From an uncultured Spirochaetales bacterium (lineage in GTDB: Bacteria > Spirochaetota > Spirochaetia > Sphaerochaetales > Sphaerochaetaceae), in assembly GCA_944392695.1 (NCBI GenBank), contig CALXXN010000018.1, positions 1 through 35,324 of the forward strand: a stretch of 35,324 nucleotides of DNA, given 5' to 3'. The number at the start of each line of letters is the position of its first letter. The stretch's first letter is position 1. The notes under the pieces were generated by a model. It saw only the letters and a list, made by a program, of their open reading frames with translations, ran no database searches and was not told where the DNA came from. A program made the position numbers and the translations under genes. Below, piece by piece: positions 21,902 to 26,478 of this stretch.

Positions 21902-23239
21902 TCAGCTGGGTATCTGGTCTACGTTCTCCCAGACGCGTCTTGCGACCTGGGCAGCCTTGCGGAAGACCTCCTCGACATCAATGCCTGGGAAGGCCCCCTC
22001 CTCCATCACGATACGGCCATCCACGATGACCGTCCTGACGTTCCGTGCGCTCATGCCCCATACGAAGTGGGTCGCGGCGTTCGCAGCAACCAAGGGCGTC
22101 GGAGCCTGGTAGTCCAGGAGGACGAGGTCTGCGGTATAGCCCTCCTCGACCCTGCCCCAGCGGCGTCCATCATTGAAACAGGTCTCGACAAGCCTGGCAC
22201 CGCGGTTCAGGGCGGTGACGAAATCGGCAGGCCACCAAGGCCCACCCGAGTCCTTGTGCTTGAAGAAGCCCAGCTTCAACTCCTCGAACATGTCACCACC
22301 ACAGCCATCCGTGCCGATGACGAGCTTTTCCACCTTGCCTATCCTGTCCAGATAGCCGACATGGTTGTTCATGTTGCTCCTGGGGTTGTGCGCGAGGAAG
22401 GCACCCCGCTCATTGATCAAGGCGATCTCATCATCGCTGAGATGCAAGCCATGGACCAGGAGTGTCTTGCCATCAACCAGGCCATAGCGGTCCAGGCGGC
22501 GTACGATGTCCTCACCATGTTGGTGGTGTGACCAGAGCACATCATAGCGGTCCTCGGCGACATGGAGGTGCATGCCACGTCCACTGGAGCGTACGGCGTC
22601 AGCCATCAGGTCCAGCCCTTCCTCAGGGATGGTGAAGGGCGCATGGCCTCCGATCATCGCTTCGACCAGCACCTTGCCATCCTTCTTGCGCTTGTCGACC
22701 TCGCGGGCGAAGCGCAGGTTCTCCTCCACGCCTTCCCTGACCTCGTCCATGCCACGGTTGCGGTCCGTGACCTCATAACAAGTCACGCCGCGGAGCCCCA
22801 CCTCCTCGATGCCACGGGCGATCGCCGAAAGCGAACCGTCGATATAGGAAGGAGAGGCATGATGGTCGATCACAGTGGTCGTACCAGCGGCTATTGCCTC
22901 GATTGAACAAATCAGGGATGAGTAGAGGCAGGCCTCCTCATCAAGCGCCCTGTCGAGGCGCCACCACCACTCTTTCAAGACCTGGATGAAGTCGGTCTGG
23001 GGACCTGCCTTCACCAGCATGCCCCTGCTGAGCCCTGAATAGTAGTGGTGATGGGAGCAGATGTTGCCAGGCATCAGCGTACGTCCACGCCCATCAATGA
23101 CCTTGTCCGCCTTGGCATCAAGGCCCTTGCCTATGGCCTTGATGATGCCATTACAGACCAGGACATCCCTGTCCTCCTCCACCTCGAAGGGTGGAGCCGT
23201 CTGCATTATCCGGACACCCCGGATAAGGATGTCAGCCAT
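21902..23239 (-). CDS. ssnA: SsnA, putative aminohydrolase of selenium/purine metabolism
   Basis: A 445-residue amidohydrolase-superfamily enzyme of the SsnA family. The metal-binding start of the barrel is ICSHHHYYSGLSRG (His63-His65), followed by DHHASPS, HLHVAED and IGTDGCGGDM, the later metal-ligand positions, and a C-terminal beta-sandwich segment (ADLVLLDY and VIVDGRIVMEEG). SsnA is encoded beside ygfK in many anaerobes and is implicated in anaerobic purine breakdown; deamination or ring opening is plausible. The ATG at 23239 has AGGAGGAGCG directly upstream and lies 8 bases after the ygfK stop. Confidence 0.92.
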   Translation of the reverse strand: MADILIRGVRIMQTAPPFEVEEDRDVLVCNGIIKAIGKGLDAKADKVIDGRGRTLMPGNICSHHHYYSGLSRGMLVKAGPQTDFIQVLKEWWWRLDRALDEEACLYSSLICSIEAIAAGTTTVIDHHASPSYIDGSLSAIARGIEEVGLRGVTCYEVTDRNRGMDEVREGVEENLRFAREVDKRKKDGKVLVEAMIGGHAPFTIPEEGLDLMADAVRSSGRGMHLHVAEDRYDVLWSHHQHGEDIVRRLDRYGLVDGKTLLVHGLHLSDDEIALINERGAFLAHNPRSNMNNHVGYLDRIGKVEKLVIGTDGCGGDMFEELKLGFFKHKDSGGPWWPADFVTALNRGARLVETCFNDGRRWGRVEEGYTADLVLLDYQAPTPLVAANAATHFVWGMSARNVRTVIVDGRIVMEEGAFPGIDVEEVFRKAAQVARRVWENVDQIPS

Positions 23240-23247
23240 CGCTCCTC

Positions 23248-26200
23248 CTAGTCTCTGTCCACCTGTGTAAGCAGGTAGGGGTAGGAAATGAAGACCTCGC
23301 TGATCAAGGAGAGTGCCTCCTCGTCAAGATCGATCTCGAGGTCACGTTCCTCGTCGATGCGCCCGCTCACGATGCGTCCACCGCGACGCACTGTGACCGT
23401 GTCGCCTTCGACCAGGAAGCCTTCGTTCTCACTGTCGAGGAAGTCCTCCTTCGATGAGAAGAGGGTGAACTTCTTCTTGTATGGTCCTCCGCTGTAGGGG
23501 CAGAAGGTCTCGCAGTTGCCACATTCGTTGCAGTAGGCATCGATGTGGAGGATCTGGAAGGGATCTTCAAAGAGGCCGCTGTCCCTTAGGTCGATCGCCA
23601 CATTAGCCCTGTTCGGACAGACATCGACGCACTTGTTGCAAAGGTAGGAACACTCGAGGCAGCGGGAAGCCTCCTTGGCAAGGAAATCCTTCCAATCAGC
23701 GCCACAATCGGAGATGTCGATTGAGGCCTTCTTGTCGATGATCGATGCGAAGTAGGCATCCTCCTTCTGGCGGTACTCCTCATCATCGAGCTCATCATCT
23801 TCATCCTCGTCATCATGGTGGTGATGGCCACAGCCGTACTCCCCGTCATCGTCATGATGGTGGCCACAGCCACACTCATCATGCTCATGATCATGACCGC
23901 AGGAGCACCCGTCGTCATCGCACTCATCATCGTCACCAGCCTCACCCAGCTCATCAAGGACGCGGTCGATGCAGTCATCGACAGCGGCACGGGCGCTGGC
24001 CATGGCCCTGACGACGGTGGAAGGTCCGCTGACGGCATCTCCGACCACATAGACATCTGCATCGCTGAGGAAGCCCTCATCAGCCTCGAGGGACAGGCCT
24101 TCCAGGAGGCCAAGGTCGGCACTCTCACCAACAGCGCTGATCAGGATGTCGGCATCGAGCACGACGCTTTCCCCACTCTCGACAGGACGGCGGCGTCCAG
24201 AGGCATCGGCCTCTCCAAGGACCATCCTGGCGGCAGTCAGGCGGCCATCCGTGAAGTCCTTGGGGTTGGTAAGGAAGAGGAAGTCCACACCATCGGCGAT
24301 GGCGGCTTCGTACTCCTCCCTGTCAGCGGGCATCTCGGCACGGCTGCGCCTGTAAGCGACTGTGACATCCCAGCCAAGGGAGCGTGCCGCACGGGCCGCA
24401 TCCATGGCCGTGTTGCCACCACCCATGACAACAGCTTTCCTGACTCCAGGAGGGACCTGTCCCTTCTTGTAGGCCTGGAGGAAGCTGACAGCGCTGAGCA
24501 TTGTACCATTGCCCTTCACACCTGGGTCCCTGGCCTTCTCTGCACCTATGGCATAGAAAAGCCAGTCGAAGCCCTCAGCCCTCAATGCATCCGGTTCCAT
24601 GGAGGCGGGATCCACTGAGAAGTGGGCCTTGACACCATTGGAGAGGATGAAGTCCACATCAGCCTTGACTACTTCGGCAGGGATGCGGAACTCAGGAATC
24701 GCACTACTGACGACACCACCAGCATCAGGAGCCTTGTCGAAGAGGCTGACATCGAAGCCGGCCCTGGCGAGGAAGAAGGCAGTGGCGAGGCCGGCAGGAC
24801 CCGCACCTACGACAGCCGCCTTCACATCAGCTGGCTCTCCTGGATGCGTCCAGATTTCATCAAGGTATTCCTCACGCCCTTCCTTGGCCGCGATCTTCTT
24901 GACCTCCCTGATCGCGATCGGACCTTCCATGTCCATGCGGCTGCAATGGCGCTGGCACTGGTGGTCGCAGATCCAGCCCGTGATGTTGGGAAGCGCGTTC
25001 TTGTCGAGTATGACGGCAAGGGCCTCGGCGTAGCGCCCCTCGCCCATCAAGGCGACGTACTCGGGGATGTCCTGATGAATCGGGCAGGCCTCGACACAGG
25101 GGGCCACGTAGCAGTCGAGGAGCGGGAGCGGACGTCCCAGTTTGACACTGTCCACCCCCCTGGCATCCTTACGGCAAGGCCCCTCTGGCGCTGTGACCTT
25201 GTCATAGAAGGCCTGGAGCGCCGGGACATCGACAACAGTGGAATCCCAGCCACTGCATTCCCCGGTGAGGCTGGCGAGCTGGCCAAGTTTCAGGTAGCCA
25301 CCTGGCTGCAGGAGGCCTGTTGCCAGGGTGATGGGCTTGATGCCTGTCGCACACAGCTCCTTGATGACAGGAGCACCGACACCACCAGAGAAGGAGATCG
25401 GCAGGCGGCCGGAGAAGTGGCGGCTGATCTTCAGCGCGACTCCTGTGGAGATTGGCAGCAACGCACGGCCGGACATGTACATCTCAGCCTCGCTCGCTGG
25501 GAGCACACCCTGGTTGTTGATGCTGCTGAGGGTGTTCGTCAGCTTGACGCCAAAGCCATGGCCACACTGTGCTGCATAGGCCTCCAGGCGCTCAAGCATC
25601 GGGGCGGCGTCCTTCCACTGCAGGTCGGCTTCGAAGGAAGCTGGCTTGAGTGCCAGGTAATCATAACCCAGGCTGTCCAGGATCCTCCTGACCTCATCAT
25701 AACCAAGCAAGGTCGGATTGAGCTTCACAAAGACATCGAAGCCCTTGGCGCCTATCAGATGGCGGCATACGGCCTCGATCTCCCCTGGAGGACAGCCATG
25801 CATCGTCGAGACGGTGAGCGAGCTTGCGATCCTCTTGCCAATCAGAGGCAGCTTGCCGCGGACCTCCCCTTCACGCCCCTCGTAAGGCGTGCCCTCGAAG
25901 AGTCCCTTCTTGAGCGCCTCATCCAATATGGCGATGTAGCCATCGAAACGCCCATCGACGTCAGCATCAGCCAGGCTGTCCAGGTAGTGGTCCATCTTGG
26001 CACCCTGGATGCCCGCAAGCGTGTAGCCGACAGAGGCGTTGAAGATGAAGTGAGGCTCCTTCCAATCCTCATGGAAGAGGATGTCGAAGACATGCGTGAC
26101 GATCCAGGCCTTGAGGTACTCGTCATAAGCCTTCGGCAGGCTGTACTCGGAGGACCATTCGACGTTGTAGCCCTCATCGCGTGCATCGATGCAGGGCTTC

Positions 26201-26478
26201 TTGACGACGAGGTCGTCCTTGTCCTGGACGGTCTTGAGCTCGATGAAGCGGCCTCCCGCCAGGTAACTTGTGATGATGTTCTGTGCCAGCTGGCTGTGTG
26301 GTCCGGCGGCGGGTCCTACGAGGCCCTCCGCCTCCTGGGAGAAGACGCGCACGCGGCCCCCCGGCGCTTTATGGAAATGGGAAGAAGGGATGGAGAAGAC
26401 GCTGCCATGCAGCCTCAGCTCCCCGAAGACTCTCTCAAGCAAGGCCCCGAAGGGTACACTCCTCATCTTGTCACCCAT
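23248..26478 (-). CDS. ygfK: YgfK, putative selenate reductase/purine-pathway flavo-Fe-S oxidoreductase, with metal-binding insertion
   Basis: A 1076-residue multidomain oxidoreductase. First comes an FMN TIM-barrel related to dihydropyrimidine/dihydroorotate dehydrogenases (FDVFVKLNPTLLGYDEV). A GltD-like Fe-S segment follows (CVAPCVEACPIHQDIPEY, ICDHQCQRHCSR). Next is an FAD/NAD pair (VVGAGPAGLATAFFLARAG and VVMGGGNTAMDAARAA), and last a ferredoxin domain (CLECSYLCNKCVDVCPNRA, CNECGNCETFCPYSGGP). Just before the ferredoxin domain sits a 53-residue insertion with 6 Cys, 10 His, 18 Asp and 9 Glu (nt 23776-23934). E. coli YgfK is about 1030 residues. The ATG at 26478 has AAGGAG upstream. It is the first gene of the ygfK-ssnA-ygeY unit. 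Confidence 0.92.
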   Translation of the reverse strand: MGDKMRSVPFGALLERVFGELRLHGSVFSIPSSHFHKAPGGRVRVFSQEAEGLVGPAAGPHSQLAQNIITSYLAGGRFIELKTVQDKDDLVVKKPCIDARDEGYNVEWSSEYSLPKAYDEYLKAWIVTHVFDILFHEDWKEPHFIFNASVGYTLAGIQGAKMDHYLDSLADADVDGRFDGYIAILDEALKKGLFEGTPYEGREGEVRGKLPLIGKRIASSLTVSTMHGCPPGEIEAVCRHLIGAKGFDVFVKLNPTLLGYDEVRRILDSLGYDYLALKPASFEADLQWKDAAPMLERLEAYAAQCGHGFGVKLTNTLSSINNQGVLPASEAEMYMSGRALLPISTGVALKISRHFSGRLPISFSGGVGAPVIKELCATGIKPITLATGLLQPGGYLKLGQLASLTGECSGWDSTVVDVPALQAFYDKVTAPEGPCRKDARGVDSVKLGRPLPLLDCYVAPCVEACPIHQDIPEYVALMGEGRYAEALAVILDKNALPNITGWICDHQCQRHCSRMDMEGPIAIREVKKIAAKEGREEYLDEIWTHPGEPADVKAAVVGAGPAGLATAFFLARAGFDVSLFDKAPDAGGVVSSAIPEFRIPAEVVKADVDFILSNGVKAHFSVDPASMEPDALRAEGFDWLFYAIGAEKARDPGVKGNGTMLSAVSFLQAYKKGQVPPGVRKAVVMGGGNTAMDAARAARSLGWDVTVAYRRSRAEMPADREEYEAAIADGVDFLFLTNPKDFTDGRLTAARMVLGEADASGRRRPVESGESVVLDADILISAVGESADLGLLEGLSLEADEGFLSDADVYVVGDAVSGPSTVVRAMASARAAVDDCIDRVLDELGEAGDDDECDDDGCSCGHDHEHDECGCGHHHDDDGEYGCGHHHHDDEDEDDELDDEEYRQKEDAYFASIIDKKASIDISDCGADWKDFLAKEASRCLECSYLCNKCVDVCPNRANVAIDLRDSGLFEDPFQILHIDAYCNECGNCETFCPYSGGPYKKKFTLFSSKEDFLDSENEGFLVEGDTVTVRRGGRIVSGRIDEERDLEIDLDEEALSLISEVFISYPYLLTQVDRD

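Follow-up and report, generated by a model that had tools for sequence, protein, structure and literature searches.

The window, which is the whole stretch of DNA analysed here (35,324 nucleotides from an uncultured member of the Sphaerochaetaceae), carries the ygfK gene on the reverse strand at positions 23248..26478, stop codon included. The encoded protein comprises 1076 amino acids when read from the methionine start MGDKMRSVPF at 26478; the listed GTG open reading frame begins 13 codons earlier, and an M-x-D-x-M start is conserved in relatives. With a score of 1145 bits against TIGR03315 (Se_ygfK), for which the curated cut-off is 835.3, the protein belongs to this family. Directly downstream lies ssnA (21902..23239, reverse strand), encoding an amidohydrolase (TIGR03314, 520 bits; Amidohydro_1). 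In the relatives searched, ssnA adjoins ygfK whether or not the insert described below is present, and its adjacency was therefore set aside as an uninformative discriminator. No Rfam riboswitch or palindrome was found upstream of ygfK, so this region gives no regulatory hint of zinc. Genes for SelD, a YedE-type selenium transporter and a molybdopterin oxidoreductase are all located within the window. The YgfK of E. coli acts in the urate pathway as yanthine reductase; no product could be detected with this enzyme by itself, whereas a mixture that also contained SsnA, NAD(P)H and 1 mM ZnCl2 yielded it (PMC12507026).

The domain order of YgfK was established from Pfam matches, invariant cysteines, an AlphaFold2 model and PDB matches. 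An N-terminal barrel, visible as secondary structure in the AlphaFold2 model only, is followed by Fer4_20, the DPD/GltD-type N-terminal 4Fe-4S helical domain (24871..25119, reverse strand; PF14691, P0001 residues 467-549), and by the FAD/NAD(P) module (23992..24819, reverse strand; PF07992, P0001 residues 567-842), which structurally matches NfnB, GltD and dihydropyrimidine dehydrogenase (DPD). Numbered from the methionine, the Pfam match of this module stops at residue 829. The C-terminal 2[4Fe-4S] ferredoxin-like domain, beginning with C940 (23494..23661, reverse strand), was recognised by a weak Fer4_7 match and by invariant cysteine columns in the alignment. The model, built from an alignment of 25 sequences with a method that does not model metals, has a mean pLDDT of 82, and its Foldseek matches (NfnABC, GltD and dihydropyrimidine dehydrogenase) are those expected for a DPD-like reductase.

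A Cys/His-rich acidic insert in YgfK

After its FAD/NAD module and ahead of its C-terminal Fe-S domain, YgfK contains a Cys/His/acid-rich insert that is predicted to be disordered and is kept in relatives (residues 849-901; 23776..23934, reverse strand). Its translation, DDDECDDDGCSCGHDHEHDECGCGHHHDDDGEYGCGHHHHDDEDEDDELDDEE, comprises 53 residues with 6 Cys, 10 His, 18 Asp and 9 Glu, exactly the composition counted in the initial annotation, whose placement of the segment also agrees with the Pfam matches and the model. The stretch separating the GDxxxGP motif from the first Fe-S cysteine measures 127 residues in this YgfK but 74 in that of E. coli, in keeping with the short linker that the initial annotation ascribed to E. 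coli YgfK. A predicted helix (residues 822-846; 23941..24015, reverse strand) runs into the insert in the AlphaFold2 model, where residues 846-895, flanked by two helices and lying ahead of the Fe-S domain, have pLDDT values below 50, falling to about 26-30 across most of the insert. Its distance from the C-terminal Fe-S cysteines is about 40 residues.

The richest 53-residue segment of YgfK holds 17 Cys plus His; over 2000 whole-protein shuffles the corresponding figure averaged 7.4 and never exceeded 13. Three units can be distinguished in the insert, all on the reverse strand: CSCGHDHEH (residues 858-866; 23881..23907), CGCGHHH (residues 869-875; 23854..23874) and CGHHHH (residues 883-888; 23815..23832), the last with a degenerate CxC in which Tyr occupies the first Cys position. 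Codons differ synonymously between units of one and the same insert, and weak tandem repeats are present in the DNA. A 267-amino-acid open reading frame lies antisense to ygfK (23815-24618, forward strand); its start region is rich in Met, Val and Ile, mirroring GAY and CAY codons, and it is probably a by-product of the codons of the insert.

Searched in isolation, the insert produced no match among PDB sequences, NCBIfam or Pfam (E up to 10, 1 and 10, respectively), a test limited by low complexity; the same limit applies to the absence of any profile match to metallothionein or another described metal-binding domain. Neither a G3E GTPase domain nor the GCxCC motif was detected in it by Pfam and NCBIfam. 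No description of the YgfK insert was found in the literature searched.

Distribution and evolution of the insert

Full-length YgfKs were recovered from relatives within the genus, within the family and outside it. Most of the Sphaerochaetaceae YgfKs examined carry a Cys/His insert, which was found in 60 distinct YgfK sequences, including those of the named strain Bullifex porci (L039) and of a one-contig genome (L018, G017). According to the initial annotation, absence from the assemblies of all close relatives would have pointed to an assembly error; the occurrence of the insert in many independent assemblies, together with purifying selection, rules out both an assembly error and a frame artefact. 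The inserts of relatives consist of repeated CxCGHHH, CxCGHDH or CxCHDH units in an Asp/Glu-rich setting. Their length changes by whole units, the number of which is very variable, and the linkers range from 2 to 19 Cys and from 0 to 14 His. The two inserts with 19 Cys each (L020 and L033) have a metallothionein-like cysteine density, and their genomes (G022 and G026) yielded no COG0523 match. Three other inserts (L047, L049 and L053) lack His and have their four Cys arranged as two CxC pairs, as in ECNCEGECTCG, and possibly represent a Cys-only form of the module; COG0523 was found in two of these three genomes. The inserts of G024 and G033 are nearly Cys-only.

No insert was found in the YgfKs of E. 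coli, Salmonella, Enterococcus and Collinsella, the Bacillota being sampled by one Enterococcus plasmid copy and the Actinomycetota by one Collinsella copy, nor in distant spirochaete YgfKs, among them those of f39 and f34. The insert is also missing from the clade G004/G007/G014, which belongs to the same genus as the window's genome. As a correction to the initial annotation, the insertion is not peculiar to this genome. A tree of the first 74 sequences, computed without the linker, requires a single gain, plus a single loss within the genus. Family members added later include further cases in which the insert is minimal or missing (G016 and G018, which have 2-3 His but lack Cys, and G021, G023 and G027), so that the true number of losses must exceed one. 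The best reading of these sequences is that the insert arose in the YgfK of Sphaerochaetaceae and near relatives and would since have expanded, shrunk and in places been lost.

Retention of putative metal ligands

In close pairs where it could be estimated, the dN/dS of the insert is about 0-0.12, like that of the rest of YgfK, and the inserts of L071 and L082 differ by seven synonymous and no non-synonymous substitutions. At aligned positions in 60 close pairs, Cys was kept in 96% of cases and His in 90%, followed by Glu (76%), Gly (70%), Asp (68%), Ser (45%) and Thr (29%). Simulated neutral drift, run to 0.3 substitutions per site, retained Cys, His, Asp and Glu equally, at about half of each. 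The CxC pair is the commonest element and accounts for 312 of the 366 insert cysteines. Cys and His are thus selectively kept over the spacers, as would be expected of an HspA-like His/Cys-rich storage extension, and the pattern fits selection for what would be metal ligands separated by freely varying spacers. A metal-binding role of the insert is likely.

About half of the insert residues are Asp or Glu, its length changes by whole units and its DNA is weakly repetitive, as would be expected of a flexible acidic stretch that spaces the FAD and Fe-S modules or acts as a docking arm, in which Cys and His are incidental products of slippage drift in GAY/CAY codons. However, Cys and His are better kept than Asp and Glu, dN/dS is low, the units differ by synonymous codons and roughly half of the Cys and His disappear in the neutral simulation, which makes such a spacer improbable; low complexity produced by slippage alone is disfavoured by the retention, the codon differences and the simulation. 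The prevalence of CxC and the position of the insert beside an electron-transfer domain would suit a thiol redox switch, in which CxC disulfides gate electron flow to the C-terminal clusters. This reading appears still less probable, because it leaves unexplained the strong retention of His and the trade-off of His with COG0523 described below, and unit number is very variable.

A similar module occurs in a second protein of the same genome. A TPR protein encoded upstream of tsaE/tsaB (L151 1152-2684; G000:C2, about 59424-60683; also L118, L152 and L157-L176) ends in the Cys/His-rich tail CGCGCGHDHHHHDHDHE. It was the sole other in-frame module recovered with the patterns used, CxCxxHxH matches having been read in frame in part. 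The tails of relatives vary, with HECHCHDD repeats or poly-His. In G004 and G007, whose YgfKs have no insert, the TPR tail is absent too, although this concerns one clade only. The His contents of insert and tail correlate in raw form (rho 0.63) but tree-aware pairs show nothing, and co-variation of the two was dropped. The same kind of tail on the TPR protein, and the lack of both in G004 and G007, argue for a lineage-wide habit of putative metal-binding tails rather than a need of YgfK catalysis.

The TPR protein also bears on the possibility that the insert is a metal shield, trapping toxic Cu, Zn, Cd or Co before they reach the enzyme's own [4Fe-4S] clusters and donating nothing. The roughly 40-residue distance to the C-terminal Fe-S cysteines, the status of Cys as the best-kept residue and the existence of Cys-only inserts (L047 and L049; nearly so in G024 and G033) are in its favour. 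Yet the TPR protein is not known to hold Fe-S clusters, other YgfKs possess the same clusters and no insert, and a trade-off with a zinc-chaperone-type GTPase would not be expected of a shield, which is possible but doubtful, although less so than the spacer.

Two further readings concern particular ligands. Binding of selenide or selenite, a possibility raised in the initial annotation, would be a task of the insert cysteines on behalf of the cluster's selenium-dependent hydroxylase and would accord with the presence of selD, the YedE-type transporter and the molybdopterin oxidoreductase in the same window. The distribution of selD, however, does not follow the insert: the gene is present in most insert-less relatives (G004, G016, G021, G023 and G027) and was not found in the insert-bearing G026 and G038, whose assemblies are incomplete. 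Retention of His would also be left unexplained, and a role in selenium handling is very unlikely. Three selD matches (G044:C83, G045:C28 and G059:C1) contain one in-frame TGA, consistent with a selenocysteine-containing SelD. The second reading is that the insert stores nickel for use by a nickel enzyme, by analogy with HypB, CooJ or HspA. The His/Cys-rich C-terminal extension of Helicobacter pylori HspA has been shown to bind nickel in vitro and to influence the storage of metal (PMC3856676). No HypB match was obtained in the window's genome or in most of the relatives with His-rich inserts searched, and the genomes that do have HypB carry mostly His-poor inserts; a nickel store for hydrogenase is therefore unlikely here, and nickel storage as a whole is just as improbable as selenium handling.

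Trade-off with COG0523 GTPases and a possible zinc pool

Unlike the other genes followed (HypB and selD), COG0523 does track the insert, and does so inversely. A CobW-domain GTPase (PF02492/COG0523) was not matched in the window's genome or in most relatives with His-rich inserts. Among 77 genomes, the 22 with any PF02492 match have a median of 2 insert His and the 55 without have a median of 8. The matches fall into two types, a division made after the sequences had been seen and with four gene families tried in all: proteins of about 400-460 amino acids with NGCICC, and proteins of about 310-390 amino acids without CxCC. The CxCC type mostly has a very His-rich loop, with up to 24 His plus Cys in 40 residues; the loop is missing in G021 and in the truncated protein of G014, while the genomes of L047 and L049 were assigned to this type by E-value and model match alone. 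The 12 genomes of the CxCC type have 0, 0, 0, 0, 0, 0, 0, 1, 1, 2, 3 and 10 insert His (median 0).

At least four insert His were found in 1 of 12 genomes with a His-rich CxCC COG0523 and in 55 of 65 without (Fisher test, 5e-7). Phylogenetic regression (PGLS) of insert His on CxCC COG0523 gave p 6e-7, against 0.07 for the Asp+Glu control. Greedy edge-disjoint pairs yielded five informative contrasts, all inverse, plus one tie (sign test, 0.06), and the independent-pair test on all PF02492 types gave 0.125; the association rests on few independent changes. The clear exception is G011, which combines a His-rich COG0523 with 10 insert His, and the Cys content of the insert is weakly linked to COG0523. 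The inverse distribution is a strong lead, not proof, and it suggests that the insert and COG0523 share a role. His-rich-loop CxCC proteins are encoded at loci L238-L242, L249, L250, L253 and L257, and the YgfK inserts of those relatives are mostly His-poor. The COG0523 protein of G036 (L257/L141), a relative without YgfK or SsnA, carries the motif CSCGHCHEH.

The best use that can be proposed for the insert, for which we infer metal binding, zinc as the metal and its donation, is that of a tethered zinc (soft-metal) pool for buffering or donation, to which a probability of roughly 0.5 may be assigned. The CxC pairs, together with the His and carboxylate groups next to them, would serve as ligands for zinc or for other soft metals of the cytosol, and the acidic flanks would keep the insert soluble and open. 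A small zinc pool fixed to YgfK would partly stand in for the His-rich COG0523 chaperone, which is missing from most of these genomes. The metal store envisaged at the outset is supported indirectly by the retention of Cys and His, purifying selection, predicted disorder, the TPR tail and the COG0523 trade-off.

The likeliest beneficiary of such a pool would be SsnA, the amidohydrolase encoded beside ygfK and functionally coupled to it, the alternative being a general cytosolic buffer. Delivery of zinc from the insert to SsnA is a tentative proposal. It counts against it that ssnA is the neighbour of ygfK in insert-less genomes as well, that the YgfK of E. coli functions with no such insert, and that the tailed TPR protein has no known link to SsnA. 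Equally speculative is the fuller version, in which the disordered insert would act as YgfK's own zinc metallochaperone, loading its obligate partner SsnA and replacing a His-rich COG0523 protein lost or gained several times in the lineage. The insert bears on the routing of zinc to client enzymes where a dedicated chaperone is absent. A single enzyme whose inserts hold between 0 and 14 His, in inverse relation to the presence of a candidate zinc chaperone, provides a natural test series in which a shift of metal delivery from GTPase to enzyme becomes directly testable, in a urate-degrading gut pathway of current interest.

Several known systems resemble the one proposed here. The YgfK of E. 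coli shares the family (TIGR03315), the domain order and the neighbouring ssnA, but its linker is 53 residues shorter and lacks the Cys/His units. The GroES protein HspA of H. pylori is likewise a core-function protein with a lineage-specific His/Cys-rich appendage; in YgfK the appendage is internal, Asp/Glu-rich and part of a redox enzyme, and it is a putative binder for which nickel is unlikely as HypB is lacking. The COG0523 proteins, which include a zinc-linked subgroup, have a conserved CxCC and commonly His stretches (PMC2770081), and the His-rich stretch is shared with the insert. The insert, however, lacks both the GTPase domain and the CxCC motif of these enzymes; in the relatives, CxCC is confined to the separate COG0523 proteins. 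A precedent for such compensation is UreG, in which His stretches occur where the separate metallochaperone UreE is missing (PMC2770081). The logic is the same, a His stretch being placed on one protein in the absence of another, but there the metal is nickel, the client is urease and the stretch is carried by the GTPase itself.
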